Shown piece by piece: positions 2,243 to 35,716 of a stretch of 36,301 nt of DNA. Below the pieces are notes generated by a model. That model saw nothing but the letters and a program-made list of their open reading frames with translations. It was not told the origin of the DNA and did not search any database. The DNA lies in NCBI GenBank assembly GCA_023231475.1, contig JALJEE010000325.1:1-36301 (forward strand), in the 5' to 3' direction. Source of the DNA: Seison nebaliae. Its lineage: Eukaryota > Rotifera > Pararotatoria > Seisonacea > Seisonidae. Both the position numbers and the translations under genes were made by a program. Every line of letters begins with the position of its first letter. The stretch's first letter is position 1.

Positions 2243-3721
2243 TCAAGAGTAATCAGAATAATCAGAAATAGAACCATCATCTCTTTCATAAGTTTTGTAT
2301 TCATCTACCAAATTATTGGCACTTTGTTCTGCCGAAAGAAATTCGTCTTCTGTCATTCCTTCCCCAGTATACCAATGGAGGAAAGCGCGTCGTCTAAACA
2401 TTTTCGTATATTGGTCAAGAATTTTGCGGAAAACCGATTGTACAGCGGTCGTATTAGCAATGAATGTCGAAGTTATTTTCGCTCCTCGTGGTGGAATGTC
2501 ACAGATGACGGTTTTCAACTACAAAAAAGAAATTTTCAATTTTTTCACAAAACTCTTCAAAATTTAACATTGTTTGGAATGAATTGGGCGAAATATCTGG
2601 AATTGGATCTTTGGACCATTGCCATTTCTGTGTCAACTTCTCTCGTACTAAGTCGTCCACGAAATACACCAGCCGCTGTCAAATATTTTCCATTTGTCGG
2701 TTCGATATTTGCCATAATATTCTTAGCATCAAACATTTGAGTAACTAATTGATGGATATTAATTGCACGATACGGTTGATCAGATCGTGCAGTTAATGGT
2801 GCATAACCCGTCACCAAGAAATGGAGACGAGGAAACGGAATCATATTCGTTTGAATTTTCCTTAAATCGGCATTCAATTGTCCAGGAAATCGCATGGATG
2901 ATGACACGCCGGTCATTACAAGTGAAATGAGACGATTCAAATCACTATAAGATGGTTTTGTTAATTTGAGAGTTCTAGTACAAACATCATAAATTCCTTC
3001 GTTATCTAAAATGAATGTCTCATCAGAGAATTCCAATAATTTCTCGATAGTCAAAACTGAATTATATGGCTCGACAACTGTATCACTGACTTTGGGCGAT
3101 GGATAAACACTATACGTACACAATACACGATCAGGATATTCATCTTTAAAATAAGACATTAATAATGAACCTAATCCTGCACCAGTTCCTCCAGCAACCG
3201 CATGACAAAGTTGAATTCCTTGAAAACAGTCACAATTTTCGATCTCCTTCCTCACAATATCCAACATAGGATCTAAAATTTCAAGACCATCAGTGAGGAA
3301 ACCTTTCGCCCAATTATTACCAGTGCCACCTTGACCTTTGAAACAATTATCAGGTCGAAATAACATGCCCATCGGTTCTGCTCTAATCTGATCGATTTGC
3401 TGTGTGTCTAAATCAACTAATATTGATCGCGGAACATATTTACCTCCTTTTACAGATTAATTTTTCAATTTTTTTTTATTTAAAATTAATATAAACCAGC
3501 TGCTTCTGTAAAATAAACATTTAGACGTTCTAATTGTAAATCGGATGTTCCATGAAATCTTCCCGTTGGATCGATTGCATGTTCATCACAAACCGACTCC
3601 CAAAACTTAAAATTATTTCAAAATTTTTATAGAGAACGTTTTATTGAATTATTGAGGAAACTCTATGGCCGATTTGCAATCCAGCGTTTCCCAATTGAAC
3701 AACTAATAATTCACGAACCAT
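2243..3721 (-). CDS. TUBB: Divergent beta-tubulin, 440 aa, four exons
   Basis: Exons on the minus strand: 3662-3721, 3497-3605, 2569-3446, 2243-2518. Introns are 56, 50 and 50 nt, and all join in phase. The rebuilt protein covers beta-tubulin end to end: GGKYVPR and GNNWAKG, the glycine-rich T4 loop (AGGTGAGLG), [37 protein letters not shown] and [13 protein letters not shown]. Tubulin heterodimers bind GTP and build microtubules. Several usually invariant sites differ. The start reads MVREL instead of MREI, and the N-terminal GTP loop GQCGNQIG reads GNAGLQIG. The C-terminal tail ends DYSDYS rather than in a glutamate-rich tail. This looks like a fast-evolving, probably specialised isotype. 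I see no frameshift or stop, so a pseudogene is less likely. Confidence 0.9.
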
Positions 3722-4281
3722 ATCAGAAATGAAAATGAAAAGGAAAAAGAAAGAAAGAAAATTAATATTTCGTATTAATTTTAACTAGATTATCAAATTG
3801 AATATGTAACAAACGTAAAGAAATTGTATGTTAAAATCGATGATAAAATCTCCATCAAATTCTTTTCATATCATCTTCCATCTATTCACAATGGAATAAC
3901 AGATTAAAATTCATATTCTTTTCTATAAACAATTTTGCTAAATTGAAAAAAATTATTTTAATCCTTAGAAATTATTTAAATAATTGAAATAACTCTAATT
4001 ATTTGATGTTTGTTGATAAAAAAGATAAGTAATGATAAAATCATCTTTTATTCTAGCTAGATAACTTTCCTCAAATTTTCAATTATTTGAAATTTCTCAA
4101 CTAATAATTTAACTCAAATAGAGTAGAAAGAAGATGGTAACACAAGTTGTAAGATTTGCTTTATTTTTTTTTTGAATATATTCTAAATATTTGTCGAAAT
4201 GTTTTAAGAATATTGACAACAGAACGAATTTGAGTGAATATTGACAACTAAGCGAATTTCAATGAATAGTGTTCGAATAAT
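3722..4281. other. Spacer between the tubulin and coiled-coil genes
   Basis: AT-rich sequence between two genes that both read on the minus strand. It should contain the tubulin promoter and the 3' end of the coiled-coil gene. Apart from the tandem duplication at 4209-4264 I see no structure. Confidence 0.4.
4209..4264. repeat. 28-bp tandem duplication
   Basis: Two adjacent 28-bp units, both beginning AATATTGACAAC and continuing to a GCGAATTT/ACGAATTT core, differ at only a few positions. They lie just downstream of the stop codon of the coiled-coil gene. Confidence 0.7.
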
Positions 4282-6730
4282 TTATGAGGCTGATAAGGAA
4301 ATATTATTATTATTATTGATTTCTGATAATAATAATAACTCGTCACTTATTGCATCATCATCAAAATCGGCGAAATCAAATAATGATTCATAAGATCGTC
4401 GAATTTGATTAATATAATTTTTATAAGACGAATTTTCGGAGGTTAGTTGTTGAACTTTCTTCAAATAATCCAATCGTTCATCCTCCAATTTATCTATCGA
4501 TGTCCGTTGTAATTCCTTCTCTTTATTCAATGTCATTTGCAATTTATCTAATTCGAATTGGAGTTGAGCTACTCGATTTCTATTTATCTCGTCTACATAT
4601 AACGTCGCATCCTCATTAAGACGTTGCTGATAATTGGAACGATGAGAGTATTCCTGATTTTCGGATCGACCTGATCTTTTTGAATGTCGATTGGATGATA
4701 AGGGTGTACGATTTCTATAAGACGTTTGTTGATCTTTTGTTTGAGGAGAATCCTTATCAAATAAATAATCATTCTCATTCTTCTCCTGTTTAAGGTGGTT
4801 GATCTCATTCAACATTTGTTTCATTTCATGCCGATATTCCATATTGATCCCATTCAATTCTTCGATCTCATTCGAAAGATTCTCATTCTTTTTATTCAGT
4901 TTTCTTATTTCATTTTGTTCTATGTCGATTGGAGGATAACGATCAAATTTCCGATAAGAATCATTTGTCGTTCTCTTCAATTCACTTAACTTTAACATTT
5001 CTATTTCATCCTTTAATACATCAATCTCTCGATAAGTATTATCTAATTCATTATTCAATTGATCATTAGTAGAATGTTTCATTTCATTTATCTCATTTCT
5101 CAATGAAACATTCTCTCTCTTCAACATTTGTAATTGCACATCATTCTCTATTAATTTAGTGGAAAGATTCGCTTTCAATTTACCTCGTTCAACACTGAAT
5201 AAATGAAAATAATGAAAGAATTAGTAATGTTAACCATTTATCTTTATTAGTAAGAAGTTCAGTTATTTGATTAGTATTGATGAAACTTCCATCAATTAAA
5301 CGATGAAACACTTCATTCTCCTTTCTCAATATGTCGCTCTCATTATTCGCGTTAGATGATTGATTCGAAGTCTCTTTCAATCTCTCCTCCAATTCCACTG
5401 CACGATTCTTATGCATTCGAGCAGCATTCTTCAATTTAGAGAAACGTTCAACAACCGTCCTCTTCTCCTCATTACACGATTCGAATGCTGAAAGTTTCGT
5501 CTCTAAATCTTTCGCTTTCTTTTGTAACGACTAATAAAGAAATGTTTAACAAGAATTTTGAAATTTGAGAGAAAAGAAAATTAACGGAATTTGATGCTTT
5601 CAATCGATTAATTTGTGCAGTTTGTGAAGTGTTTTGACGTAAATGTTGTTGTTGTAAATCATTCTCCGATTTCTTCCATTTCTGACATTGCTCTTCTAAT
5701 TGTTTCAAACGATTCTCTAATTGTCGTTTCGATTCGGTTGGGAGGACGTCGTTCAATGGATAATTCTCTTGTTCAGAATGAATTGGCTCATACTTCCTCT
5801 CATCATTCTCCATCAATCGATGATAAGATTTTAAATCTTTTAAAAATTTCTGTAATAAATCTTCATAATTCATTAATTCTTCTCTCGTCACATTGGGCAT
5901 GAGACGAATTGGTTTTTTATTTTTTTTAAGAAATGTTTCGGAGAATTCTCGAAGTTGTTCCTCATATTTCTCTCGAAACTTTCTCGTTTGTCTTATTAAA
6001 CTCTCAATGAGTTGCTTCTCCGTCAATGTCTCATCCATCGAGATGTTAGTGAAAGCATTACTGATAATGGGTGACGAATTGAATTTTTTAATGTTTGGAA
6101 TATCTTCTGGTTGTAAATTGAATGATCTTGGCGATGTTAATTCGATGGGCATAATTGATGAATAATCTATAAATTTCTTACATTTTCTCAAATTGTCATC
6201 GCCTCGAATATTCTCGTTGGAGAAACAAAGATTCTTTAATTTGTCATCCGTCAATTTACTTTCCTCGACAGAAACATCTCTCATCATTTCCTTTTTCTTC
6301 CAATTCCTCTCCTCCATCGACGATAAGAGTGATGCTTTTAAGAATTTATCATTTATCTCTTCTATTCGTTTCTGTAAATTACAATTGGATTTATTTGTCA
6401 AATAATTCTCTTTCATCGGTAAGGAATTAGATCGTTTCAATGAATCACAACCCATCATCATCATCATCTGTTTCTTCTTCTTCTTGAGATCTGGTGTAGA
6501 AGTTAATTGTTTCGAATTCGAATTACTTCTATTCATTCTCATTACTGGTACGCTAGCACCGGATTTTTTATGGAAAGAAACTGAATTGACTTGTGAGTTT
6601 AATTTTCTTTTCACATTTCGATCTCTCTAAATGAAATTGATATTAATGGAATGAGTAATTGGAAGAAGGAAAAGGAAACTTCCCAGGAAACATTTGGTTT
6701 CGTTTTCGATAGATAATTCTTCATTCTCAT
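4282..6730 (-). CDS. Coiled-coil protein of unknown family, about 766 aa
   Basis: Exons on the minus strand: 6680-6730 (inferred), 5586-6626, 5235-5530, 4282-5194. Introns are 53, 55 and 40 nt and the frame is continuous. The first exon (17 codons starting MRMKNYL) was chosen because it supplies an ATG and a phase-0 join at an acceptor before residue RDRN; without it the frame has only a GTG. The N-terminal third is basic and serine-rich and carries a run of Lys and Met. From about residue 215 onward the protein is dominated by heptad-like Leu/Glu/Lys/Gln/Asn stretches, broken by a Ser/Arg-rich segment, and it ends in a short acidic and Asn run. No enzyme motif or membrane segment is visible. 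Its composition suits a cytoskeletal, centrosomal or cilium-related scaffold, but that is inference. Further 5' exons cannot be excluded. Confidence 0.75.
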
Positions 6731-8681
6731 GACACTTCGTCTATTAACGATATTCCCGTTCCGATGTCACATCAATCGTCACGGTTACCAATCATTAATG
6801 TTCATTGATTATTTTAAGAGGATAAGTAAAGAATTATTTTTTTTAATTTGAAGCTTTCTCTAACGTATCAAATAAATGATTTGATTGGAAACGGAAACTA
6901 TGGAAAAGAAGAAAAATGAACATTCTTCATATTCTCGAAGCGAAAAATTTTTATTTAAAAGGAAATTTCTTCTTCCTTTCAAACGAGCGATCGATTGTTC
7001 GCTTGTTCGTTCGTTTTATGAATCAACAACGAAAACTTTTCATGTCAATTATTTAGTGGGATAATTGGAAGAAATTAAATTGACTTACCATTCTAACAAT
7101 TCACCTAGGAAGTCGCCTTCGGGGAATTTCTAATTAAAATTCTTTTTCTCTCTCTTTTCCTCTAAAATTGTCTGTTAATTCATTCTTTTCTCACCTCCGA
7201 ATACTCAACTGGGAAATTGTTGAGGAGCGATAAAGATTTCTCTTCAAAATATTTCAAGATAAGTTTACAGGAAGTCCATCGTTACGGAATTTCATTTAAC
7301 GAGAATTAGTTATGTCATCAATTGAAATGATGATACTCGACGTCCATTTTGGAGAATGTTAATGACTTTTATATCAAATCGTCCCTCAACTATTTATCTG
7401 ACATTGTCTATCGAATGTTTACCTAAATCATTCGTAATGATGTCCATCTTATCTTGTCTCTCTCATCAATCTTTTCAAAGTCACATAATTTATTTAATTA
7501 TTTATTATATTCCCAATTTAATTCAATTCACTTTTTCAATTATTCCATTTCTTACAATTTCTTCTAAAGATGGAATATTTATCGTTTTCTTTCTATTCTT
7601 TTATCATTCATTCTTCCATCACCTCATCGTTAAATAAAGAGGAACGACATTTAAATAACGATATTGTTGGAAAGGAAATTTTTTTATAATTATTCAAAAT
7701 TCTTTCCATTTTCTTCTCCATTCCCGCAATCCGTTGGAGAAGGAAATGTTTATCATCGTCACGATGATAAATTATATGATTGTTGTCGGTCATTTATTTG
7801 CGTGCTTAAGAAAAGGGAAATGATGAAGGTGATTACGAATTCAAATAATTGTTTAGGTGAAAAGAAATATAAATATGTATTAGTCATCTTTATTATTTGT
7901 ATTAATGAAGGAATGTAATGTCAAAGTAATTCTCTCTCTTATCATTCCCTCCTTCTGATTTCCACTCAATGTTTTCAATCATTTTTTAGGTGAAACATTT
8001 TTTTCTTACAGACAATTATTTATGTATGATAGGAAAGATGATTAGATGAATAAGGAAAATATTTCGAATGATATCAAATAAAAAGAAAAGAAAATTAAGA
8101 ATGATTATTAAGTAAGAAAATGAAGATAGATGTTATGTTGGAGAATAAATGAATTTTAATGAAGAGATAATAATTTGCATAAGAAGATTGCGTTCCGATT
8201 GATGAGGGTCATTTGATATAATGTCCAAAAAAAACAAGATAATTTAAAGTTGCGCGGATGAGTTGAGGAATCTATTAGAATCTATTCGTGAGATTTCTCC
8301 CTACTCTCACATCAATTTCAATTCAACCAGAATAATTGAATACATGAGATTTTTGAATAATATTGTTTGGAGAGATTGTTAGATATGTTTAAATGAAAAG
8401 AAATTTACGATACTACTTTCATTGTATTAAGAAAGTTTGGAAGGAAGAAGAATTCATCGTTTTCGAAAGAATTTTTTGGATAAAATGATAGTGCATTTAA
8501 AGGGGAAATGATAAAGAAAAATAGATTAAGATATGAATTTATAAAATTACTTACACGTTCCCATATTGGAATGATGATCAATAACGAATATGATGATGGA
8601 ACAGTATTGGAATTGTAATGCAATGAATGAAAAGAACTCGTAAAATAATGTAGGAGGACGTATCAAAGAGGAGAAATATCT

Positions 8682-8715
8682 ACACGCACACACATACACA
8701 CACAAACACACCCCC
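8682..8715. repeat. CA-type microsatellite
   Basis: Imperfect CA dinucleotide run ending in a C tract. It is followed at once by a short TGTGTGTG stretch, so the two could fold back on each other. Confidence 0.8.
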
Positions 8716-10006: not shown

Positions 10007-10363
10007 TATTTTATTTTTCTAAATCTTCATAATTTATCATTATAAGAAATTTCTTATATCTTATTATTGAAACAAAACATAATTTTTCTTTGATTAACTG
10101 AATTTAGAATTTTAAATTATTTTTGTTGATCATGTCGAATGAAGAATGAGAAGATTGTCTTAATATTCTCAGACACGATCCGACGTGTAATTCTCTTCTA
10201 ATTCTTCCTGTTGTTCACATAGAAATTCTTCTAATTTGTTTGTTGATTTTATTGTTTGTTAGACGGAAATTATATTTTTCAGTTTAAAAGAATATTTCGA
10301 AGATCAGAGGAAAAATTGAGAACTATATTATAAATATTCAATTAATTATTACTCAAAAGCCGA

Positions 10364-13087
10364 ATGATAACAACTTCATCTATCTCATCTTCATTATCGT
10401 CAATTGATGATAATCGATCATCATGTAATTTAATTTTATCATCATCATCGTCGTCGTCGTTATCTTCATCATCATCATCATCATCATTATTATGTCCTAC
10501 ACCAAAATCATCATCTTCTACATCATCACCAGCAACAACAACAGTGACAACAACAACAACATCGATATCACAAACGGATATTCCAATGAATAATAAGAAG
10601 AAATCTCATGAAACTTTTCAATTATATCCATTCATTCATCAAGTTGGAGGACATACGAGTGTGTTCATGTATGATGAGAAGACGATTTGTAAACCGTTGA
10701 ATGATCGGGAATGTCTCCTTTATAACGATTTGCCATCATCTTTATCGAAATATGTGCCACGATATAAAGGCGAGACAAATGTCCATTGGTTCGAAGATGA
10801 TAATTTTGTTTATTTATTGGGAGGATTAAATGGAAAGACAGATGAATCAATACAACAATTATTGAATGAATTAAATGATAAGAAAGGACGACGATTAACG
10901 TTGAAATTGAGAAGATCATTATCAGGAAATGTTGATGGTTTTGTATTGAGTGGAAAGACGGAATATATTTATGAATCTCTTATTTATCCCCAATCATCAT
11001 CATCGACTACTCCATTAACATTGACACCGTCAACGATGAGTGATACAAATTCCAATTCATCTTTGTCATCATCATCATCATCGTCATCATCATCATCATC
11101 ATATTCACCTGTGACATCCAATACGAGAAAGCGAACATTAAACAATCAGTTTAATTCCCATCAGAACTATCATCAAAAATATCATCATATTAATCATAAC
11201 AATCAAATTCTGACAACGACATCTACACTTCATTATTCGGATGGCACCACAAGTTCCAATGAGAATAATTTGACCAATTTCCACAAAGATTCATCCAACC
11301 AAAAATTTATGAGTTCTCTCTCACAAGACATGAAACGTCGTCGTACAACATCGTTGAATCCATGGTGTTCATTGGTGACGATTTGTTGGATGTCTAAAAC
11401 GCGATTACAATTGTTACGTGGTTCGAGTAATCGAAAGAAATTTATGAAACGTGTTTCATATTGTCCACAAACTTCGAAATTTAGAGGAGGAATGACCAAT
11501 TCGATGAATGGGAAACAATTGAAAAGGAATCGTATTAGGAGATCAATTTCATTTTCTCCTTCATCTAATTCAGATGATTTTCCATTGAAATCATCGAGAT
11601 GTCTAGTCCAAATGATTTGTAAGGAATCGATTATTGATGAGATGATCAATAATCGATATAAAAAATTGGAGCATGAACATTTGCATAAGAATCGGAAGGA
11701 GAATATCGAACGACGATCTACACTCGTCTTCCTTCAAAATTGTCAACGTTATATGATGAGAAAATATATGATAAAGAATCATCATAAAATCAACAACAAC
11801 AAGAGTGTGAATAATGATAATGATAATGGTTCGATGGAGAATTCGAAGGAGAATATATCGAAGAAATTAGAAGAAGATGATAATGTAGTAAAATTGGTTG
11901 GATGTCAGAAATTTATGTTGATGGAGAATGTGGTAGCATATTATAAGCGTCCATGTATTCTTGATTTGAAAATGGGAACGAAACATTATGGAGATGATGC
12001 GACAAAAAGGAAGCGTGAATCACAATCACAGAAAGCGGCAATATCCACATCAGCACGTTTAGGTGTACGTGTATGTGGAATGCAAGTTTATCAAAATGAC
12101 AGAAATTTATTTTTATGTCTTGATAAATATCAGGGACTCTCATTATCTATTGAAGGTTTCCGTCACAATCTCTTACAATTTCTTCATGATGGTTATCGAA
12201 TCCGTTTAAGTATTATCCCAATACTGTTGGAGAAATTGTCTCAATTGTATTTGTTGATACATTCGTTAGATACGTGGCGATTCTATTCGGGTTCCATTCT
12301 CTTAGTTTATGACGGTCATCCTGACAAGATTAGTGAAGAGATGAAGAAACGATTTTCATCATCCGATAATTATTTGTTAAAGAATGCTTTGAATTCTTTA
12401 AAGAAATATTTCCAAACTAAATTTACCGACAATCTTCATTATACAACTAATACTCAATATCTCATTTATAAGAAATTATGTCTTCTCTTCAAATGTCGAA
12501 GTGATGGCAATTTTAATCAGATATCTCAGGAACAACTCAAACATTTCTCTCAGAATGATTCATCGACATTCGATCAATTACTCGGTAAATCATTCAAATA
12601 TTATTTGAAGAAATCGCTCGTACTTCTTCCTTCGCCTTCATCTTCTGCCACTTCATCCAATAATTCGTGGCCGGTAGCGGATGTTCGAATGATCGATTTC
12701 GCACATTCAACTCATAAGAATATGAATAAATTGAAAGAACACAAAGGACCAGACAAAGGTTATTTAACTGGACTGGCCAATTTGATTCGAATGTTATTCG
12801 AGATACTCATCGAATACTCTCCTACTTTACCAAAGTCATTTTTCTCACCATCATCACGATCAAATGACAACGATACGGAAACGTCGAATTCGTCAACTCT
12901 CCAATCATCATCGTCGTCGCATCATGACACGAAAATCAATGACGATGATATTAGTGACGGTCCGAACGTCATTTATGTGGAGGATGTGGAAGCTAAATTA
13001 CCAGATGCACCTAATCGCGTACCTCATCGTTTACCTAATAAACCATCTGATATCACATGTATGGATGCATTCCGTTCACATCATTGA
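10364..13087 (+). CDS. IP6K: Inositol hexakisphosphate kinase, 907 aa, intronless
   Basis: Members of this family (inositol polyphosphate kinase fold) phosphorylate IP6 to the pyrophosphate 5-IP7 using ATP. Seen in order: the N-terminal block [20 protein letters not shown] (near residue 92), the substrate-binding signature PCILDLKMG (about 530-538, matching PxxxDxKxG), [22 protein letters not shown] (near 642), the metal-binding VRMIDFAHS (near 774-782), and [14 protein letters not shown] toward the end. All key blocks are intact. Long low-complexity inserts rich in Ser, Asn and His separate the N-terminal block from the kinase core, which explains the length; vertebrate enzymes are about 400-450 aa and insect ones are longer. 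The whole reading frame is one exon, unusual beside the intron-rich neighbours. The ATG at 10364 begins the frame. Confidence 0.95.
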
Positions 13088-16032: not shown

Positions 16033-17068
16033 ATGAGTCAACCATCATCCGATCGATCAAGAAAACGAAACTTGTATGCCAGATGTGATCAGACCACATC
16101 TCCCTGCATCAATGACGAGGAAGAAGATTGTCGAAATATCATTTCCAGTACACCAATCGATACATCGGATGTTCAAACAACTTCTTCAACACTTCAATCA
16201 ATTTTACGTGATCGAATTCCACCTCGCACACCCAAATGTGCTCGATGTCGTAATCATGGTGTTGTATCTGCATTGAAAGGTCATAAACGATTTTGCAAAT
16301 GGCGTGATTGTAACTGTGCCAAATGTACATTGATTGCCGAACGACAACGTGTCATGGCTGCACAAGTAGCATTACGTCGACAACAAGCTCAAGAGGAAAC
16401 AGAAATTCGAGAAATTAGTAAAATTCTTGGGACTCCCGCCGAATTGGTTCTCTCATTACAACGGACCATTGGCAATGATAATTTACCTACATCTCAATCA
16501 CCTTCTGATCAGACATTCAACGAAGAACAGAGTAACATACCGAGTGATGATGAATGCCAGGAACAATATTCTCCTGATACACCATCATCATCATCTAACG
16601 GCTTTTCCAGTAATTCACCAGAATATTCCGCTGAAATTAATTCGAATTTACATTCCGGTTAATATTCTCCAATTAAATTATCTTCCTCTTTTTAATTTGT
16701 TTGTTTTTTGTTTGTTTGTAGCAATGACGAAACTCTTCCCTCAATATGATAATCAATTCCTCTTGCAATTTATTCGCCGTTCAAATGGACAATTATTAGA
16801 CACGTTGAGGAACATGTGCACAATTCAGAAGCAGAACGAAATGAATGACAATCAACCGTCTGATATTAAGCGGAGAAATTGTGCATCGTCAGAAACCCAA
16901 TTCATCAATAACATTCTTCACATAATGTCCAACTGGCCAGGAAACAATAATTTCGATTTGCTCCAAACTACTTTAACCACGTCAGATATGGAGAATAAAT
17001 CGGAGAATAACAAGAGCAAATTTGACAACAAGTTCTCAATTGAATCCTTATCGAACAATGATAAATAA
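16033..17068 (+). CDS. DMRTA: DMRTA-type DM-domain transcription factor, 323 aa
   Basis: Exons 16033-16657 and 16722-17068, with a 64-nt phase-1 intron. The DM domain (about residues 65-115) begins [20 protein letters not shown] and has all cysteines and histidines of the intertwined CCHC/HCCC zinc sites, ending [19 protein letters not shown]. The block [13 protein letters not shown]...[12 protein letters not shown] points to the DMRTA group (vertebrate DMRT4/5, fly Dmrt99B). Exon 2 opens with [18 protein letters not shown], matching the small CUE-like DMA domain of that group, although diverged. DM factors bind DNA through the minor groove and act in sex-specific and neural development; DMRTA members are usually neural. 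The rest is polar and Ser/Asn-rich. The ATG at 16033 is the first in frame before the DM domain; extra 5' exons remain possible. Confidence 0.92.
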
Positions 17069-19843: not shown

Positions 19844-21110
19844 ATGACGATTGCTAAATATCCCAATATGTCGTTCCTAAATAATTATTTTCTAGTTGTT
19901 TTAGAGACATATAAGAATATGAAGAAATTTGATCGTTGGAGTTTAAGAAATGTATTCGATTTGAAATGTTAGTTGAGAAACTCACGTGTAAGGAGGGAGA
20001 GGACGTTAATTAGCAAAGTGTTTGTATACTTAAGAGAGTTGGTTAGCGCACTTTCGGATATGAATGAAAAAAAGATATTTATCAATTTTGCAACAAGTGC
20101 CGCGAATAATCGAATAATATATATGGATCATCGAGAATTGTGTGAACAAATGTTCCAAATTTTACCGGCAATGACCGAGTGTATAATGGAGAAAGATGTT
20201 ATGATAAAATTCATAGAATTCATCATTTATAATCTACATCGAATGGATGACCGAGATGAGACGGCTTGTCTCGAATATTTAGTTCGAATTCTCACACCTC
20301 AACTCATCGGTCAAGTGGACGTTGAGCAAAGTATAAAAATTCTACTTATCAAATACATTTCCGCTGCGAATAAAGTGGACAAATATGACCGATCAGTATT
20401 GTTGACATTGCGATGTGATTTCGCTGCCAACTTATTGGCGATGTTACCAGAATTAATCGAATCGACGAACAAACTGATAAATATCCGTCATCTCCTCGAA
20501 ACGTTGTATGTGGTGGAAGAAACGACAATGCCATTCGCCTCACTTCTTTGCAGTTATTCGAAGAATGAGGAATGTGCCAAAATTATTTGTCGATATCTAC
20601 CGGAAAAGAAGTTGATTTCTTGGTTGAATAAGATCGATAATGAAATTGTCTTTTCTGGAATTTTTGGAATGTTGAGAAATTTATCATTTTTTCCAAGTTT
20701 TTTTTTTTTTAATTCTCTAAAAAATTCTTCAATTATTAGTGTCTCATTCTCGACTTTTACAATTGGTACGACCAATTATATTCGAATTGGCGGAAGAGTA
20801 CAAGATGGACTTGGAAGAATTGACGACATGGACGATGGACGGTCGAATGGAGAAAGTTCGATTGAAATGTAAATTCGATTGGAAAATTTTTATTTTCGAT
20901 TTATTGTCACAAATCAGTTCGACTGGCGCTTGTCGCAAATTGATGAGAGACGTCTCACTCTACCAATTAGCACGACAAGTCGATATGGAAAATACTGACG
21001 AAGCATTAAAGGAATCCGTTCAACGATTAATTGCCATTCTCATCAGTGAAGAGAAAGACGACACGCTCAATTATCATGAAGTGTCATTGAAGCCGAACGA
21101 AAAAATTTGA
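19844..21110 (+). CDS. Helical protein of unknown family, about 381 aa
   Basis: Exons 19844-19894 (inferred), 19973-20696 and 20740-21110; introns are 78 and 43 nt. The second join (phase 1) is forced by the loss of an open frame in a T-rich stretch and restores a good frame. The protein is a chain of amphipathic helices rich in Leu and Ile, for example IKFIEFIIYNLHRM, SIKILLIKYISAANK and FSGIFGMLRNLSFF. This pattern resembles armadillo/HEAT folds, but I cannot name a family. The N-terminus is uncertain. The frame is open from an ATG at 19844 except for a TAG at 19970-19972. That TAG is the last triplet of the proposed 78-nt intron. An ATG at 20061 is an alternative start. Confidence 0.75.
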
Positions 21111-22164: not shown

Positions 22165-22205
<41 letters not shown>

Positions 22206-23579
22206 TCTCAATTTTATTTGGAGTGGTCGAATTATTTGAAAAATTAACTCCAAATAATTTTTTGTAATTATTTTCATCCTCATGATCATCTTCATCATCA
22301 TCATCTTCTTCTTCTTCTTCTATCACATTTTCAATTTCTTCTTCTTCACTTTCACTCTCCGAATTATTCGTATAATTCTCATCTTGACGAATGAGACGTC
22401 TCAATAATTGTTCGGTCATTCGTTTCGGTTTTAATGATTTTTCATTATCTCCTGAATCATTCGATTTATTTCCATCATTCTTTACCGTCTCGACGGTTTT
22501 ATTTGGAGTTGGACGATTCGTCTCGAAATATGGCGTCAATAATTGAGCGACGGCCATGACAAGATTGCCCACCGTTTCTTGTGGTTGAACGAGATCATTT
22601 TTCGATAAATTTCTTTTTCCAATTTTCGTCGTCGACGATGAATTTTTTTGGACGACGATCGATCTCTTCGTTTTTCCCCGTTTATTTTTCTGAAATATAT
22701 CATCTTTTTTGATGGTTGGACTGATGGTGGTGGTGGTGGTATTGGTGATGGTTTGTTCATCTTCTTTTTTCATCGATTTATTTTCCACATCTTTCTTTTT
22801 AGAATTTGAAATTGAATTTGAATTTAAATTTAAATTTGTTGGATTCATCCAACTATTTGAATATAAAATATCGAACGGTGAAGTTTTCCTCAAAGTTTGA
22901 AGAAGATTTTGACGTGATTCATCATTGATCGTCCAAAGTGAACCACGTCCTTTACCCACCTTTCTCACGAAACATTTGTTGAGACTGAGATTATGTCGAA
23001 CGGAATTCTTCCACGAATTATCTCGTTTGGCATAATATGGAAATCTCATTCGAATCCATTCATAAATATTTTTGACTGGTAATCGTTTTTCTTTCGATTC
23101 TTCGATCGCCATAAAAATGAGAGAAGAAAAAGAGAATGGTGGTTTAATATCCGAATGCATTAACGGATCATAAAGACTTGCGTCCTCTACTCCATTTTCC
23201 ATTTTGGCCGTTTTGAGATGAATGAAATTTTTCGATTTTCTCGAATGTTTCCGAGTGGGCATTGGCAGACAAATATTCTCTGACATATCATCCTCATATT
23301 CCATCAATTCCATCTTCATTTTATGCGAATCGTTCATTGAAGAAATGTTGAGATTTGACAAGAATTTCGATGGAACATTCCGATCACTACCACCATCAAT
23401 GATGATTCCATGATTATTTAAAAGATGTCGTTTCGTCTCACTGTTGGTACAATTGAGTGGTATTTCAGATCGATTGGCATTCGTCGAAAAAATGGAAATG
23501 GCACGTGGCGAATAATCCGCCACATCTCCACAATTTCCTGTCGAATTCATCAATCGAACATCCGATTTCTCTTTTAAAA

Positions 23580-23619
<40 letters not shown>

Positions 23620-24174
23620 GTTGTTATTTTTGGGTGAAATATCAATGGAAGAATCTAAACATGGTAACATGTCAGGAACGAGCCATGACAATTCAGTTAA
23701 AGAACCGTCGTCAGTTGACGTTGGTGAGACATTTCCATTTGATGATTCTAAATCGTTGAATGATGATGAAATATTCACATCTTTATCATTCTTATTATTG
23801 TCGATGGAAGTGTCTAAAGAGATTACTTCATCCATTTTTTTTCCTTTATCATCATCACATATTTTCATTTTACTAATCGTCGATATCGGCATACCGATTA
23901 TGGAATTGGTTAATTTCGTCTCATTATTTCCTCCCAAATTATTTTTATCATCCTCATCAAACAACGGAATTATCTTCTTCTTCTTCTCATCTCGTTTCTC
24001 AACGACAATTCTCTTAATCGTCTCCAAATTATTCTTCTTCTCCTCCTCTTCATATTCTCCAATCGACCGTTTGATGTTGAAAGCGGACGGTTTTATTCGT
24101 AATATATTTGAATCACACTCATCATTAATCGATGATGAATGATCCGATGTCATATCATTCAGTTCGCGTGTCAT
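21682..24174 (-). CDS. FOXN3: FOXN2/FOXN3-type forkhead transcription factor, about 830 aa
   Basis: The coding region is one exon. The forkhead domain lies at about genomic 23151-22869 (about residues 342-435). It starts [19 protein letters not shown] and contains [26 protein letters not shown] and [25 protein letters not shown] and KRLPVK are hallmarks of the FOXN2/3 (CHES1) group, as is the upstream acidic segment [16 protein letters not shown]. Group members are DNA-binding repressors linked to cell-cycle checkpoint control. The long flanks are low complexity: a poly-Asn run (DNA near 23580-23620), a C-terminal acidic block with poly-Asp (DNA near 22167-22205), and Lys/Arg-rich clusters. 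The frame stays open upstream to a splice-acceptor-like CAG at 24267, so the leader probably contains an intron. I start at the first in-frame ATG (24174). Confidence 0.92.
22167..22205. repeat. Trinucleotide ATC/GAT repeat in the FOXN coding region
   Basis: About 13 units that encode poly-Asp on the minus strand. Length variation between individuals is likely. Confidence 0.85.
23578..23621. repeat. Trinucleotide ATT repeat in the FOXN coding region
   Basis: A run of ATT units that encode poly-Asn on the minus strand, upstream of the forkhead domain. Confidence 0.85.
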
Positions 24175-26456
24175 CCCAATTACTCGCGAATTTCTATCGG
24201 AAATTATTTCTCTCCTACTCTCCCCCCCTCCAAACTGTTGCTGTTGTTGAGCAGATGAGCTCAACACTGACAAACGGAAAGGAAATAAAATTTAACGAAA
24301 AAAAAAACGAATTCTAAAAAAAAAAATTTTTTAATTTTTCAAAAAATTAATTGGAAAAATAATAATTATAATAATGAGAAATTATAGAGAATATTTTCAT
24401 TATTTATTTTTAGAAATTCTCGCTTTCTCTCTCTCTCAATGAAGAATGAGAGAGAAAAAATTTAATGATAAATCAAAAGAGAAGAGAAGTTATGAAAAAT
24501 ATTATTGAACTATCTTTCTTCTCGAAACATGTAAGACTACTAATAGAAGAAGAATAAGATTGAAATAATTTGAAAGTTTCATTGGGAAAATCTGTTTCAG
24601 AATGATCTCTCTTTAGGATAAGTTGGAGGAGATAATAGAAAAGGAAAATAAACAGATAGTGAATCTGAAAGAATAAGCTCAAAATTTCATTTTAATTAAC
24701 AACAACGATTACGGACGCATAGAATAAAATTGGATAATAATCGAAAAAGAAATATCAAATTAAGCCGGAAGAGACGCTGATGATGGAATTGAAATAAGAT
24801 GATTCTGATCAATTTCCAGGAAATAGTGTCAATCACCATCTCTTGAAGGCGACGACATGTCGACGTCGAGAGTTCACATTGGAGAGGAGAATTGGTAAGA
24901 AAAATGGGAAATGATGGAAATCGAATAAAATATGTCGATGATTGGAAGATATTAGTCAGCGTTGTCATGGAGATGAAATCGTTCTTTTACTTATTTTCCT
25001 TTCATTACCTTTCTGCTTGAAGAGAAAAGTCTATTTCTAAACAATAATCACTCGATTATTGTCATTTTCCCATTTAGTTATTTCCCAACTCATTACTCTC
25101 ATCAATCGAACATCAGTCAACAGTCTCTGACCACAATTGGAATTGAAGAAAAAGTTAAATTGTCATTCGTCGACTTGACAACGAAGTGACATCGATAAAT
25201 GATACAAATTATTATGATTTGATGGAAGACGTAATAAATTGTGAATGAGTTTCAATGATGAGAAAGAATAGAATGTCCGAAATTCGAACGAGAGACAGAG
25301 AAAGAAATGTGACGAGTGTCGATTAATTTTTTCAGCATTTCCTAATTAATTGGAGGGAAACATGTCGTTCGGGAAGGTGATGAAATGGAGGAAACATAAT
25401 GAGAAATATGATAATCATAATTATCGATGGTAACGAAAAGAACGTCAAGTAATGAAAAGAGAAATCATTTTTTCCTGATTAACTATTCTCGATTATTCCG
25501 TCAAACATTATCATTCCTCTTGTTTTCTATTGACAAATATTTATTTGTGTTGATACCTCCATCTCATTCCACATCTCATCGACCACACGACACGTGTGAG
25601 TGTGGGAGAAGAAGACACGAGTGGAGAACGACAGAAATGATGATTGTGATGCAGATAAAATAGATGAACATTTGAACGAGAATGAAAGATAAATTTTGGA
25701 GAAGAATCATTCATCGAACGGTTGCCATGACGACGAATGAGAGCGCGAACTGAATAAAATACAGAAGTGCGTTGAGGGGAGGGAAGAGATAGCATTCTAA
25801 TTTCAATTTCTATCACTCCAATATTTCGATGATTAGTCACCGATGTAGAGAGCATAAGAAGAAAATACGTATAATACGGGAGGGATAAGATACAATATAA
25901 TTGGAATGATAATAGGAACATCTAAGGGAGACCAATAACTCTTCCTGCACCTCGATATATTTATCTATTTCGTATTATACTGTTGTTTTCTGTGCGATGC
26001 TGAAGACATTCGATTCTCCCTTCTCTATCATCATATAAATATCTCGCAATTATTGATGCTATAGTAACCGATTAATGGGCAGATAATTTATCTCTATCAC
26101 ATCTCTCCCCTACTCTCTCTCTCACTACTCTTACCAATGCTACACATATGTATGTCATATATATTCCTTCAAATCATTCATATCACATATTACTCATCAT
26201 CTCATGTGCACTCAATATCTCCTCACAAACTACTGTACGAATTAAACTAGAACTAGTATGACACATCGAAAATTATTGTAACAAGAAAGTTCGTTTGGTA
26301 AAACTAAAATTATTCAATCAATAAATTCATAAACTTATTTAAATGTTTAAAAAATTTAATTTAATTAATTAATTTTAATAGATTGATGAAAATTAAAAGA
26401 AAAAAACATCAAAAAATTAAAGTGGATGATTTGATCGTGTCGTTTGGAGTGTGTTG

Positions 26457-27661: not shown

Positions 27662-27677
27662 TATCTATCTCTATCTA

Positions 27678-27708
<31 letters not shown>

Positions 27709-28200: not shown

Positions 28201-28326
28201 TTCCCATCAGATGATTTTGATTATGGTTCAGGTTAAAGTAAGTAAGTAGTCAATGTTGAGGATGGTAATGCGTTCGTGAATTATCAATCGTTCGAATCAT
28301 AATCACCATTCTTCCTGGCGGTTATT

Positions 28327-31300
28327 ATGGCGCAAACGGGCGTTCTCGCTTTCCTCCGAAATGTCAATTTGGATGGGAACAATTTCTCCGTTCGATTTTC
28401 TTTTTATATTCAATTTTATTCTTGTAATTTTAGTTACCGCAATATATTCCTGAAGATCTGGAACATATGGGCAATTTGCGATCGTTGTCATTGAATGGGA
28501 CACGATTGAAAAGTATTCCATTGAAGCATTTGATTATGTTGGAGAAATTGGTTAGATAATAAATGAGATAATTTTTTCATTTCTCAATTTCATTCTTTAG
28601 GAGAGTCTCAGTTTGAACAATAATAATTTTACAGAAATTCATTCGAAACACAAATCCATTTTTCCCACATTCTCCAATCTGAAAGAATTGTATGTTCGTC
28701 ACAATCAATTGACAGACGACGGATCTCTTCCACAACAATTATTCGAAGAGTCTCATATTGAAATTTTGGTTTTGAATTAATTTTCCATTTTTTTTTCCAT
28801 TTTATGATAATAATTCAGGATTTGAGTTATAATCGTTTAACGGATTTATCCAATTCGTTGGAATATGCGACACATCTCGTCTCTCTCAACATCTCTCACA
28901 ATCAGTTAGTTTCGTTTATTAATTAGAATTTGTTATGAAAAAAAAAACGATCAGAATTCAAACGATTTCCAACAATCTCTTCTCCGCATTGACACAACTT
29001 CGCTTTTTTGACATTTCTCACAACAATATCGGTTAATTAGTTTTTTCTTAATCGATTTTTGAATTTTCTATCTAGAAACTCTCTCGTTACAATTCCGTCG
29101 TTTGACGGAATTGCAGGAATTGAATATCGGAAATAATCCACTTCAAATCCACTCACAAATGAGACAATTGAAAAGTTTGACGAAATTGACCGTTCTCAAG
29201 ATGAGATGTTGTCAACGAACGAAAGATAATTGTCCAATCTTCGACGAATCGATAATGAATATCGAAGGTTCAATTTTACTTTACCGTTTCTGATGGAAAT
29301 AATTTTTAATTTGAAAGAACTGGATTTGAGTGGAAATGATTTAGAAGAGATTCCAAATTTCGTATTCGAATTGAAAAAATTAAAACGACTTTATTTGAAC
29401 GATAATCGATTGACGACAATTCCATCAGAAATCGATCAATTGAATCAATTGGTCATTCTTCAATTATCGCGCAATCAATTGAGGAGTTTGCCGGTTTCAT
29501 TTGTCTATTTGTTCCTTACCGATGAGATGAATGGTTGAAGTTTTGTAGAATAATCTCATAAAATTAGATCGATTGGAACGATTATATTTGAATTCGAATC
29601 AATTGACATTTGATCATATTCCTACAGGAATGGGAAAATTGAGAGAGTTGCGACTCCTCTCATTGAACGACAATCAATTAGAAATGATACCAGAATCGAT
29701 TTGTCGGTTATTTTCCATCATTTCCATCATTTTTATGATTTCCGTCAAATTTTCCATTTTTTCCATTTTTTTTCTTTTTAGTTGTGGGAAATTGAAGAAA
29801 TTATTATTGGAGAAGAATAAATTATTGACGTTACCAGATTCGATTTATGCACTCAAATTGAATATTTTGAATATTAATGATAATTATGAAATTATTTTAC
29901 CCTCGAAAGCGCAAAAGATTCAGAAAGGTGCCGGCGACATGTTCTACAACATCAACTTCGAGTTATCACATCAGTTGATGAAGTTGGCGGAGAAGAATAA
30001 ATTAGATTTCGATTGGCCATCAACACACAATCTTCGCGGTGGTAAAGATCGAGTGGCTCGAAAACGTCGTTTGAAAAATATTTGTCGAATTGGAAAAAGA
30101 TCGACGGAAAATGATTCAAATAAAGCGTTAAATGAAGATGATGATATCGCATCGTCACAAGTCCTTCGAGGTATGAGAGATGTGGCGATAACGAACAATA
30201 AGAAGAATTTGAACGAAAACCATCAAAACGGTATTGATTCGTCGATTAATAAGCGATTGTTGGCGGATGAGGTGTTGGCAAAACAGAAACCAGATACTGA
30301 TTATCGTGATTTATTCGATGACGATATTGGAACGGAGACGGGATTGATTGTTTGGGAGATGGAACATTTCCTGCCGAATCGTCTCGATCGAGAATTAAAC
30401 GGTTCATTCTATGATGGTGATTGTTATATCATTCTTCATACATATATGGATGAGAATGAATCATTGAATTGGCAGATTTATTATTGGATTGGATGTGAAA
30501 CAACATTAGATAAACAAGCTTGTGCAGCAATTCATGCAGTTAATTTACGAAATGCACTAAATTCTCAACGACGAACAATTCGAGAAGAATGTGGAATAGA
30601 ATCATCAGAATTTCTCTCACTCTTCCCCAACAATTATATCACCACATTACATGGAGCAAATACAGCGAGTGGTTTCTATAATATTCCTGGGGAAGGTGAA
30701 GTAATTAAACGTCTTTATCGATTGTCAGAAATGGGACCAAATGCCAACGAATTGACACGACCGAGTAATTTGTGGGCAGAAGCGATGCCACTCCATTATG
30801 GCGCATTAGATCGTCGTCATTGTTTCATTCTACATACAAATGATGTTGTCATCGTATGGAATGGAGAGAGATGTTCACCTGTCATTAGGAGCAAAGCGAG
30901 ATTATTCGCTGAACAAATTAACAAAATGCCAAATCGATTGACGAATAAAAAAGGAGATCGATACGTTTTTGTCGTCTCACAAGAAGCGTCTTTATCTCAG
31001 AAATATTGTGAGGAGAAAAAAGAAATGGAAATATTCTGGTCGGTGTTGAAAGGACCGCCCGAACCAAATTATCTCGTTCCAATGAGCGAAATGATGGGAA
31101 ATGAATCGTCACATCTTCAAGGAAGTGGCGATTGTCCTTCAAATATGAGAGAAGAAGAAATTTGTGAGGAAGTGTTCAATATTCGACAACATCTTTATCA
31201 ATCACTCGTTCTTGCTTATCGTCCTCCCATCATCTATCGTGTCTCGCTGGGACATGGATATCTAGATTTGACTCAAGTCACATCAACAGATGCCGCTCTC

Positions 31301-33476
31301 ATTACACTCGAACGACAATTGTCACAAGCGAAAAATTATCATCGAACAAAATTGAAAAATTCAAAAAAATTTAATAAAGAAAATAAGAAAAAAATAAATA
31401 ATGATGATAATAATGATAATAATGATGATAATGATAATGATGATGTTAATGATGATGATGATGATGATGATTATTCGTTACAGAATGTGTTGAATGAGAA
31501 AGATCTTCCCAAATTGAATGATGTCACACTCACCACATATCGAACACTTAGATCAGATTTATTAGAGTCCAATTCCGTCTACATCATCGATGGATGGAGT
31601 GACGTGTTCGTCTGGTTTGGGAAGACGTCCAATCGAATTCTCCGTACAGCCGCAGTTAAATTGGCGAAGGAATTGAATCTCATGTTCAAACAACGTCCAC
31701 TCTATTCCATTGTTCTGCGAGAGGTGGAAGGAACGGAATCACCAGTTTTCCAATCGAAATTCACCGAGTCAAATTGGCGAAATGAGAAGAGACATCGATC
31801 AAAATCTAATGACAATCAGAAGAAATTGAAAAAGAATAAAAAGAAAGTTTCAGACGAACCGAAATTACATGTCGATCTCTCCGCTCTTTTACGTCCACGA
31901 TATTCTCCCTTATCATATATGGAAGCGATAAATCATTGGAATATTTGTAATGACGCTTTAATCGAAAAGACTCCTGATGCCTTCGTATTAGAGAACAAAC
32001 AATTCGTTCGTCTACCTGAACATGAACGAGGTTTTAATTACAATTGTTTATATTATATTTTAATTGATTAATTTATTTAAATTTTAATTATCATTATTCT
32101 CTCAATTAATTTCAAAATAATCATTTTCTCTAATGATATTTTTAAATTTACAGGAATTTTTTACGCGGGAAATTGTTACGTCTATTTCTGCCAATATTCA
32201 TCAGAATTTCTCACGAATATCATCGGGGAAAATGAATCGGAATCATCAGATTATGAATCCAATTTAAATAGTCATCGAAGTGTCGTTTATTTTTGGCAGG
32301 GTAGAAATGCGACGAATGTCGGCTGGCTCAATTTCTCATTCACGTTAACTTTATTCAATTTTTTCATTTGTGTTTCATTTCCGTTTCAGATTGAGAAAGA
32401 AATTAGAAATGGTCGTGGGAGATAGTTTGGAGATCTATAAAGAATATCAAGTTCTATTAATTCGTCTTTTTAAAAAAATTCATTTTTTATTTATTCACAA
32501 AAATTTCAAATGGAATTTATCATGGAAAAATTAGCAAAAAGAAAGTTCCGTTTTTCTTTCACATTTCCAAGGGCGATTCGTTATAAGACGAGGTCGTCGA
32601 GAGAGTTTTCTAGCGAAGAATGGACAATGTTATCCCGACGAACCGGAACTACTTCAACTTCGTGCCAATTGTGGATGGCAATCGATTCGATGTATTCAAA
32701 TCGATTCATTATCATCAAATTTATGTTCTGCTTTCTGTTTCATATTCTGTGTTCCATTTACTAATGCTTCCAAATCCAATAACAACAACAACAATAATAA
32801 TAATAATAATAATAATAACGAAAGTTTTTTTCATGACGAAAAATCATCGTCATTATCATCATCGTCATCATATCAGATGGGTAATGTGATAGAAGATGAT
32901 GAAGAAGATCGAGGAATAGTTTATGTTTGGATTGGTTCGAACGCCGATCCTCATGAAGCACATTTGGCGGAAGAGATTGCTAATTATATTTATGATGATA
33001 CATATTCCATTCAAGTGATCAATGAGGGACATGAGCCAAAGAATTTCTTTTGGGATTCAATGTCGAGAGGTCGACAAACTTATTCGAACGACGCCGATTA
33101 TTTACGTTCTGTCCGATTATTTCGATGTTCCTGCTCTCCCGGTTATTTCGAGATAACAGAAAAATTAGATTTCTGTCAAGATGATCTCATCGATCACGAT
33201 GTCATGATTCTCGATAATGGAACTAAAGTCTATTTATGGATCGGTCCTTGTAGTTCAGATATCGAGAAGAAGTTGAGTTATAAGAGTGGGGAAATGTACG
33301 TGAATAGTCTGCGACAGAAAGGCGAGAAAAGAAAGATAATTTTCGTGACGAAAACTCACGAATCTCTCGAGTTCACCAAAGCTTTCCATGGATGGACCAG
33401 TCATATCAAATCACCCAAATCGTTAGAGAAGAATATCATTCTTCAAGAGATGTATCAAACGGGCAATATGAATTGA
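28327..33476 (+). CDS. FLII: Flightless-I homolog (LRR plus gelsolin repeats), 1492 aa
   Basis: Twelve exons: 28327-28389, 28434-28550, 28601-28768, 28819-28904, 28955-29031, 29076-29267, 29318-29493, 29549-29706, 29782-32030, 32154-32343, 32390-32450, 32535-33476. All joins keep phase and follow the known protein from start (MAQTGVLAFLRNVNLDGNNF) to end. Residues 1 to about 430 are leucine-rich repeats (for example LNISHNQIQ, LDLSGNDLEEIP). From about residue 530 come six gelsolin-like segments: DGDCYIILHTY, LNWQIYYWIG, SVYIIDGWSDVFVWFG, NCYVYFCQY, GIVYVWIG, TKVYLWIG. The family remodels actin and acts as a coactivator in the nucleus. The length exceeds the human 1269 aa because of Asp/Asn-rich inserts between gelsolin segments 3 and 4 and an Asn/Ser insert before segment 6. 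Intron 8 (29707-29781) is 75 nt and stop-free in frame, so retention would add 25 residues. Confidence 0.96.
31390..31472. repeat. GAT/AAT trinucleotide repeat in the Flightless-I coding region
   Basis: It encodes an Asp/Asn-rich linker between gelsolin segments 3 and 4. The frame is kept. Confidence 0.85.
32778..32820. repeat. AAC/AAT trinucleotide repeat in the Flightless-I coding region
   Basis: It encodes about 14 consecutive Asn residues just before the final gelsolin segments. A Ser-rich TCA/TCG run follows. Confidence 0.85.
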
Positions 33477-33963
33477 CTATGAATTTCGAATTCCATCAAA
33501 ATCCGTCAAATTATCATCAACCGTTTTTTTGACGTTGTCAATTGGCATTTAAACGTATTAACAACATATCTCTCTCTTATTATTATTATCGTAAAGAGAA
33601 ATCATCTTTTCTTTACCATCCTACTTTCCACCTTCTCAAACGCTCTTCTCCTCCACTTCTTGTTTGTCATTCAATTTTTCTTCTAAATAAAAATTAAACG
33701 GCTATTAATCAAATCAATTCTTATCATCACATTTCCATTAAATACTTAAATAAAAATAGAATTTCAAAAAATTTTTTCTCGTCTAACAATTATTTAAAAA
33801 AAAATCATTTATATGATATATATTATGATATATTGATAATGGAGTTTAATTAAATTTCTAAAATTCTCCAATATAGAATAGATGTCGTTATTTATCTAAC
33901 TAATTCTTCTTTTCGTAGTAGTTGAAGGAGTTGAAAGAAATGAAGATGAAAAAATGGAAATTC
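33477..33963. other. Convergent 3' regions of Flightless-I and choline dehydrogenase
   Basis: 487 bp between two stop codons on opposite strands. AATAAA at 33686-33691 suits the plus-strand gene. I found no clear minus-strand signal. Nothing else is recognisable. Confidence 0.5.
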
Positions 33964-35716
33964 TCATTTTCTTCCATCGATCAACTTCTCTGCCATCATA
34001 ACAACGGTTGCATTTAAGTTAGTTGAAGTGATGGAAGGCATGATGGAAGCATCGATGATTTGTACGTTCTAAAAAAGGAAAAATTGCAAGAAAAAAATTT
34101 TAGAGAATTAACTTCAATTCCATGAAGGAAACCAGATGAATTGACGACACTGTCACTCTCATCAATTCCCATTCGACATGATGATGATAAATGATGAACG
34201 GTGCCGCCCGTCTCTCGAATATATTTATATAGATCATTATCGTTCTGATATTGGAAACCTGTAAATTGAAATTTTTGATGGAAATGAAAAAAGTGATTGA
34301 ACCTGGAAAGAATTCATCTTTAATCTCATCTCGTAAAGGTGATTCGTGACAAATGAGTCTTGCTTGACGAATTGCTTCTAATGTCATCCATTGGTCATAT
34401 TGAGTGGAGAGATAATTTGGATTGATTAATGGAAGAAGAGAATTGGAACGATTATCTGAATGAATTGAACCGACTGATGTTGGTTTTGTGAGATTTGAAT
34501 ATAATTGAAATCCATCAATTTTATAAAAAGAAGTTTCGTTATCTCGAAGCATAGCAGGAAGAAAATGAATTTGAATATCACTTCTATCATTTCTTTGCTT
34601 AGTTTGAGATGAATTAATAAATGCTCCCATTTCCATATGATTGGAAGCAGAAAATCCATCACCATTAATCAACCATCGAAATATCGATGCTGATTTCCTC
34701 CAATTCGAATATGACATTCTCATCAATTTCGATTTGATTCGTCTCATTCGATATTTGAGTTGAACGGCGAAATGATCTTGAACATTCTCTCCAACATTTT
34801 CCAGACGTTTTTTCAACGGAATTTTCAAAGAATTTTCAATAACATCTTTTCTACCAATTCCACTTCGTTCAAGGAATAAAGGCGATTCGATCGATCCGAG
34901 ACAAATGATGATATTTTCTCCTTTCACTCGGAAACTTGTCGGACTATTGGGATATGTTAATTCGATGGAATTACACCGTTTATTATTCTCATCTAAAATC
35001 ATTCGATGACATTTGACATTTTGAAGAATAGAAATATTTCTCCGAATGGGAAAGAGATAATCGAAGGCTAATGATCGACGAACACCTTCATTAATGGCTG
35101 TATCAAAATATCCATAACCGTTTGATGAATATGAATTAATATCGGGAAGGAAAATCTTTCCGTTATTTTTACAACTTTCCAGAAATAAATCTCCATAACG
35201 ATTACGAGTTAACGGTCCTTTTGACAAGTAGAGTGGACCGGAAGAACCACGTTCATTATAATCACATTTCTCATTTAAAATCGTTTCACTTTTTTTAAAA
35301 TATTTCACACAATTCTCATACGACCACGAATCATCAGCGATACGTTTCGACCATTCATCCAGATCGAACGGATGAGCTCTCAAATGAACCATTCCATTAA
35401 TTTGGGAACAACCACCTAATATCATCCCTCTCGGATATGTAATGATACGATCGTTCAAATTCGTTTGTGGTAACGACTCATAATAAGTTGTGTGTTTGGG
35501 CGAAGTTATGGCATTAGAAATACCGATAGGTATGTGGAACTTCCAAGCATCTTTCAACCAATTAATCTCCTTTCCAACATCCACTACCAAAATATTGGCA
35601 TTCTTATCCTTCTCGTATAATCGACGAGCGACAACACTACCCGCTGATCCACATCCACACACAATATAATCATAAGATAACTTTCTCAAATTAGATAACT
35701 TTCTCAATTGGAACAT
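33964..35716 (-). CDS. CHDH: Choline dehydrogenase (GMC oxidoreductase), 554 aa
   Basis: Exons on the minus strand: 34303-35716, 34113-34258, 33964-34068; both introns are 44 nt. The enzyme oxidises choline to betaine aldehyde, feeding betaine synthesis in mitochondria. Seen: an Arg/Lys/Ser-rich N-terminus suited to mitochondrial import; the FAD Rossmann motif YDYIVCGCGSAGS; GMC signature 1 as GGCSQINGMVHLRAHPF; signature 2 as GSIESPLFLERSGIG; the catalytic-His block VHHLSSSCRMG, which lies in exon 2; and the final block IDASIMPSITSTNLNAT, with the conserved Asn in NLNA, in exon 3. Without the two small exons the frame drifts into nonsense, so they are essential. One oddity is VVDVGKE where GMC enzymes usually have Glu (LLEAG) contacting the FAD ribose; Asp may replace it. 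Other GMC enzymes are possible, but the C-terminus fits CHDH best. Confidence 0.92.

Follow-up and report, generated by a model that had tools for sequence, protein, structure and literature searches.

Is the spelling of the 5' splice site (donor) fixed in animals, and if it changes, does U1 small nuclear RNA (snRNA) change with it? Few RNA pairings are as strongly conserved as the helix between U1 and the donor. The question was raised by a stretch of 36,301 nucleotides (nt) from the tiny marine seisonid rotifer Seison nebaliae (GenBank assembly GCA_023231475.1, contig JALJEE010000325.1, positions 1 to 36,301; called the window), in which an earlier note, made from the letters alone, placed 20 introns in six genes, all starting with GTT. 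Intron placement by homology, in the window and elsewhere in the assembly, together with a search for U1 genes, indicates that the U2-type GT-AG donors of this animal have very probably been re-spelled from GTR (R, purine) to GTT jointly with the 5' end of U1, by way of U1 duplication.

GTT donors in the window and across the assembly

Introns were re-placed with a custom spliced protein-to-DNA aligner that weighted every GT donor and every AG acceptor equally. The tubulin gene gave three introns, all GTT, and the identical three when any dinucleotide was permitted. Flightless-I, aligned in the same donor-neutral way with a profile of seven homologues, gave 17 gaps, 11 of which were accepted, all of them GTT. 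Ten of these 11 disrupt the reading frame; the remaining one (29707-29781) is open in frame, yet its join recovers the conserved ..CRCGKLKKL. The six other gaps (3 GTC, 1 GTA, 1 GTG, 1 GTT) were rejected as artefacts, poorly conserved inserts skipped within long open frames, five in a frame of 840 residues and one in a frame of 313. The Flightless-I alignment scored 2351 with any GT donor, 2300 with GTT only, 1761 with GTC only, 1387 with GTG only and 1269 with GTA only, and the tubulin score collapsed under the last three restrictions as well. One Flightless-I intron, at 29268, moved to a different, non-AG site once all dinucleotides were permitted.

The introns of the choline dehydrogenase gene (two), the NCKAP1-like helical gene (one) and the DMRT gene (one) were placed by eye from the reading frames, the joins being verified in frame; all are GTT. 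The observation of GTT donors in the window is thereby confirmed for 18 of the 20 introns (Table 1), with the earlier note's number of introns in each gene, in a tally that leaves out the two introns of the coiled-coil gene. No published Seison model for cross-checking Flightless-I or tubulin was present among the 120 matches listed for each.

The assembly (36.03 Mb, 846 contigs) was sampled through two gene families. A Ras-family search listed 79 matches, from which 20 interrupted-looking places were tested and 12 of 14 uninterrupted-looking ones went into the profile; a search for ubiquitin-conjugating enzymes listed 25 matches, from which eight regions were used, five tested and three for the profile. 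Twenty-six genes were aligned, and 25 of them (1 Flightless-I, 19 Ras, 5 ubiquitin-conjugating enzymes) form a strict set, for which a GT or GC donor and an AG acceptor were demanded and from which 14 gaps with a length divisible by three and no frame interruption were excluded.

The strict set contains 64 introns: 61 GTT, two GCT and one GTA. The start is GT in 62 and GC in two, with clean joins, as in U2-type GT-AG introns; +3 is T in 63 of the 64 donors, against the animal consensus of R at this position, and a single donor is GTR. The departure at +3 thus extends beyond the window, although the earlier claim that every donor is GTT is not absolute. Among the excluded gaps (6 GTT, 3 GTC, 3 GTA, 2 GCT), at least the one at window position 29707 is probably a real intron; if all were added, GTT would account for 67 of 78. 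The 64 strict introns have a median length of 49 nt (range 41-185), and in 89% of them a pyrimidine (C or T) occupies acceptor position -3. Minor, U12-type introns have RTATCC donors; judged from the donors alone, which are GTT with weak flanks, this class does not fit.

Just two of the non-GTT donors look solid, GCTTAG and GTACAA, and these lie in one Rab32/38-like gene (L048, G000:C337:6340-6960) on a contig of 11.7 kb, where the alignment nearly forces both. They may represent a genuine minor class or come from foreign DNA. For a GCT donor in another gene (L053), a GTT lies 15 nt off and was the one chosen once the GT/GC requirement was lifted. In the U1C gene, excision of a GTT intron recovers a protein stretch of 24 residues.

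A homology-free scan of 236,301 bases, covering the interval 40-52 nt upstream of YYNYAG, found GTT to be the sole clearly enriched one of the 64 trinucleotides (451 observed, 371.5 expected, z 4.1; next best CCC, z 1.8). The other GTN trinucleotides were near expectation: 207 against 217.6 for GTA, 170 against 188.0 for GTG and 191 against 187.8 for GTC. Three further scans were set aside. A codon-usage scan for introns was too weak (31 candidates, 17 with T at +3), and an open-frame scan, which ranked ATA first (46 against 28.9) and GTT second (30 against 18.5), was not counted as support. The whole-genome pattern CTGAAAN{28,42}ACTWAC proved powerless because the reversed control matched more often (228 against 198); 47 of its matches comprised 37 GTTAGT and 10 GTAAGT (background fraction 0.63, p 0.014). 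A search for a branch-point motif gave nothing clear.

U1 genes and their predicted pairing with the donors

The earlier note had reasoned that a fixed T at +3 predicts a compensating change in U1 or a weaker dependence on it. Scoring of 41 candidates, out of 293 from a first search, with the Rfam covariance model RF00003 yielded four U1 genes in the assembly, at 112.9, 112.4, 108.0 and 97.4 bits, all above the cut-off of 69.5 bits. Three of them (L001, L003 and L004) start with AUACUAAC, in which nucleotide 6, the one opposite donor +3, is A; these are referred to as A6 genes. The fourth (L002, 112.4 bits) starts with AUACUUAC and is the only one to carry the canonical U1 5' end, AUACUUACCUG. 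Three of the four genes therefore carry exactly the swap expected opposite +3, which, as far as sequence can tell, supports the earlier reasoning; the copy with a canonical end had not been foreseen.

The U1 genes are spread over three contigs. On one of them (L005, G000:C208) the canonical-end gene and an A6 gene (6576-6739 and 8280-8439) lie on opposite strands, 1.5 kb apart. When the assembly was scanned for exact copies of the 5'-end pattern ATACTWACYTGG, five matches turned up, the four U1 genes and L028, for which no Rfam match was obtained. All three A6 genes are followed, exactly 10 nt downstream, by ATTAAACT (chance about 0.0013 per 40-nt window). The same 3' box is found among the U2 genes, exact at 20 in one and with one mismatch in a second, and is missing from a third. 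The Sm site AAUUUNU is present in all four U1 genes. The loop motif AUUGCAC, to which U1A binds, is present in the A6 genes and not in L002. The four copies share 65-70% mutual identity, and L004 (G000:C762:47440-47598) has, in addition to A6, a U as nucleotide 9; this U would pair with A at -1, the base found there in 27% of donors. No shared upstream element of the U1 genes was found. Contamination was considered as a source of the contigs with U1 genes; a G6PD gene shares a contig with two U1 genes, and its four introns are all GTT when GT/GC-AG is required, three of them unchanged with any dinucleotide.

One U2 snRNA copy, L075 (G000:C796:78598-78799), is divergent (78.7 bits, against 139.1 and 135.4) and lacks the 3' box.

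The A6 end, AUACUAACCUG, forms 11 of 11 pairs with CAGGUUAGUAU at -14.0 kcal/mol, compared with -10.1 for the canonical end. Over the 64 donors, the A6 end pairs better than the canonical end at 52, equally at three and worse at nine, a gain largely due to T at +3. Pairing is stronger at true donors than at 372 further GTT sites of the same strands (mean free energy -3.65 against -2.10). G is found at -1 in 26 of the 61 GTT donors, above background (p 6e-7), and at +5 in 17 of the 61 (background frequency in introns 0.064, p 2e-7); among all 64 donors the counts are 26 and 17. Position +5 is rarely G, as had been noted from the window, but given its enrichment it is weakened and not lost. Since G at -1 and +5 is still enriched, U1-type recognition looks kept rather than abandoned. 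The A6 and canonical ends differ only at nucleotide 6, so the enriched pairing supports U1-type recognition in general; specific support for the A6 genes comes from the base swap itself and from the better pairing with 52 of the 64 donors.

Other spliceosome components were located. The single U6 found is canonical, including the ACAGAGA box, and U1C and U1-70K are present, as is Prp8, in an uninterrupted frame of 2395 residues. A Prp8 query of 1867 residues from contig C431 is, over 98% of its length, 100% identical to SNEBB_004371 of Seison nebaliae; a search for COX1 as a further marker of identity gave no match. Pieces of LUC7, which is relevant to donor classes, occur at one place only (G000:C540:21603-22771); animals usually have more than one LUC7 subfamily.

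Origin of the GTT donors and alternative explanations

Because most U1 copies carry the matching one-letter change, signal and reader appear to have changed together. In the mechanism proposed here U1 was duplicated, and paralogues would have acquired A for U at nucleotide 6, pairing with U at donor +3 instead of A or G and becoming the main donor readers, with the consequence that +3 would be about as fixed as +1 and +2. Later splicing steps look unchanged, as U6 keeps its canonical box. The mechanism presupposes that the A6 RNAs are produced, bind to GTT donors and are required. In its full form, which we consider somewhat better than an even bet, a paralogue underwent a U-to-A change at nucleotide 6, the ancestral GTR donors were converted to GTT in place, the canonical U1 lost AUUGCAC and was retired or re-tasked, and GTT-AG replaced GTRAGT. 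The order of duplication and donor shift is reconstructed in this scheme.

Conversion in place is suggested by two introns of the tubulin gene, one following residue 19 and one in codon 56 (phase 1), which we take to be at the intron positions of vertebrate TUBB; if they match, the donors of old introns would have been converted and not replaced by those of new introns. For removal of the introns, a natural comparison is offered by a Rab1 gene with five GTT introns (L043, G000:C536) and its intronless paralogue (L054, G000:C457). They share 77-82% identity over the main segments, and their alignment has five gaps of 46-50 nt precisely at the predicted introns. The paralogue is probably a retrogene, copied from spliced RNA; the alternative is that introns were gained in L043. 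Several further Ras genes are also intronless.

Several points weigh against joint re-spelling of donors and U1. The canonical U1 scores like the best A6 gene and has a 3' box with one mismatch (random-window chance 0.042). Without the GT/GC requirement, non-GT joins are equal or better at some introns, and the count presumes GT/GC. The two exceptions to GTT lie in one gene, L048. The constraint at +3 (1.88 bits) exceeds what pairing alone suggests, -1 and +5 being lax. Finally, further U1 genes may be missing, because the assembly, at 36.03 Mb, is smaller than the published estimate of 46 Mb.

The canonical U1 may be live, given its score and its near 3' box, such as one U2 gene also has. Two codes could run in parallel, the A6 U1s serving the GTT majority and L002 a few GTR donors, or the suppression of early polyadenylation, or trans-splicing. 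We regard this as possible, though doubtful. L002 folds as a U1 with AUACUUACCUG retained, and the GTACAA donor of L048 pairs slightly better with it (-3.0 against -2.1); on the other side, GTR makes up one of 64 donors, L002 lacks the AUUGCAC motif and the homology-free scan gave no excess of GTR.

T at +3 might instead be enforced mostly after U1, in a genome whose introns are short and AT-rich, either during transfer to U6 and U5 or through proteins such as Prp8 and LUC7; U1 would not be the driver, and its alteration would be secondary or tolerated. This would account for +3 being much more constrained than other U1-paired positions, and passages of a study of donor choice stress the U6/U5 handover above U1 (PMC11732430). 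It is unlikely, as the U6 found is canonical, no surplus of GTA, GTG or GTC is seen at intron distance despite the AT-rich genome, and U1 has changed at precisely the right position to precisely the right base, an outcome that a random single change over nine pairing positions would reach once in 27.

That the A6 genes are non-functional and match T at +3 by coincidence, canonical U1 doing the work, is improbable: the copies are only 65-70% identical, one has the second change at nucleotide 9 and the assembly may lack genes, but each of the three scores above the Rfam threshold and carries AUUGCAC as well as a perfectly matching 3' box at +10, and chance would leave the agreement in both base and position unexplained. 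An artefact of reading or AT-richness, with gaps fitted to the commonest GT trinucleotide (GTT is 8361 of 20,936 GTN in a sample), can practically be dismissed in view of 61 GTT among 64 introns under a GT/GC-neutral score, the collapse of scores with GTA, GTG or GTC donors and the exact lack of five introns in the Rab1 paralogue.

Comparison with other splicing systems

Ordinary metazoan U2-type introns, read by U1 with AUACUUACCUG, resemble those of Seison in the GT start, the pyrimidines and AG at the end and the enrichment of G at -1 and +5, and the U1 fold and the ACAGAGA of U6 are also ordinary. Seison differs in having T, not R, at +3 and A at nucleotide 6 in three of four U1 genes.

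Donor changes have been reported with conserved U1 5' ends (PMC13326754, PMC10581693, PMC5714493). The larvacean Fritillaria borealis is, like Seison, an animal with a genome-wide departure at the donor, but its U1 5' end is reported as strictly preserved and identical in both U1 versions, whereas in Seison U1 itself is altered and GT-AG retained (PMC13326754). In Saccharomycotina one donor position, +4, has likewise switched between A and U by lineage; U1 ACUUACC is reported as invariant there wherever U1 was found, in contrast to the compensatory U1 change of Seison (PMC10581693). The copepod Eurytemora shares with Seison unusual animal donors, GA and GG, described as about 12% of its introns, with a conserved U1 5' end and A almost obligate at +3 (PMC5714493). 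The diplonemid Sulcionema specki is reported to have an altered-5'-end U1 paralogue beside a conserved one, as Seison does; there the variant end is a string of C residues whose pairing with canonical donors is comparable, unlike a donor-matched base swap (PMC12621601).

Titles, abstract openings and passages, in which subscription journals are mostly not covered, contained neither a report of Seison GTT donors nor one of a U1 that has AUACUAAC, and letters of this type in papers on splicing or RNA binding were, among the matches listed, branch-site probes only. The main text of the Seison genome paper has 'intron' twice, 'splice' once and neither 'donor' nor 'snRNA' (PMC8351084). In PMC7310846 nothing on splicing or introns was found.

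The in vivo importance of the U1-donor helix was demonstrated, according to one study, by engineered compensatory mutations (PMC11732430). If the reading of joint change is true, Seison would present a natural, genome-wide compensatory swap, evolution's version of that experiment, and a donor code would be able to change through U1 duplication, a route that the Fritillaria authors call likely but which was not taken there (PMC13326754). Gene finders based on GTRAGT are expected to put many introns in the wrong place in this genome, which, its report indicates, has been used for rotifer and acanthocephalan phylogeny and for work on gene loss (PMC8351084).

Table 1. Introns re-placed in the window, with donor hexamers and basis of placement
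Feature	Positions	Strand	Donor	Basis and remarks
Tubulin intron 3	2519..2568	-	GTTAAA	donor-neutral spliced alignment
Tubulin intron 2	3447..3496	-	GTTTAT	donor-neutral spliced alignment; phase 1 at codon 56
Tubulin intron 1	3606..3661	-	GTTTCC	donor-neutral spliced alignment; phase 0 after residue 19
DMRT intron	16658..16721	+	GTTAAT	reading frames by eye, join checked
NCKAP1/HEM-like helical gene intron	20697..20739	+	GTTTTT	reading frames by eye, join checked
Flightless-I intron	28390..28433	+	GTTCGA	spliced alignment
Flightless-I intron	28551..28600	+	GTTAGA	spliced alignment
Flightless-I intron	28769..28818	+	GTTTTG	spliced alignment
Flightless-I intron	28905..28954	+	GTTAGT	spliced alignment
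Flightless-I intron	29032..29075	+	GTTAAT	spliced alignment
Flightless-I intron	29268..29317	+	GTTCAA	spliced alignment; other site with any dinucleotide
Flightless-I intron	29494..29548	+	GTTTCA	spliced alignment
Flightless-I intron	29707..29781	+	GTTATT	75 nt, open in frame, excluded from strict count
Flightless-I intron	32031..32153	+	GTTTTA	spliced alignment
Flightless-I intron	32344..32389	+	GTTAAC	spliced alignment
Flightless-I intron	32451..32534	+	GTTCTA	spliced alignment
Choline-dehydrogenase-like intron 2	34069..34112	-	GTTAAT	reading frames by eye, join checked
Choline-dehydrogenase-like intron 1	34259..34302	-	GTTCAA	reading frames by eye, join checked

The window also holds an open frame of 913 residues (10346-13087), by eye a candidate for an inositol trisphosphate 3-kinase-like protein, and one of 869 residues on the reverse strand (21682-24291) with, by eye, a candidate forkhead domain. 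Elsewhere in the assembly, a reverse transcriptase domain (RVT_1, E 7.7e-21; L009:553-1536) marks a retroelement, and the N-terminal domain of CATSPERG (E 5.9e-13; L006:948-1634) places a subunit of the sperm CatSper channel in this rotifer relative.

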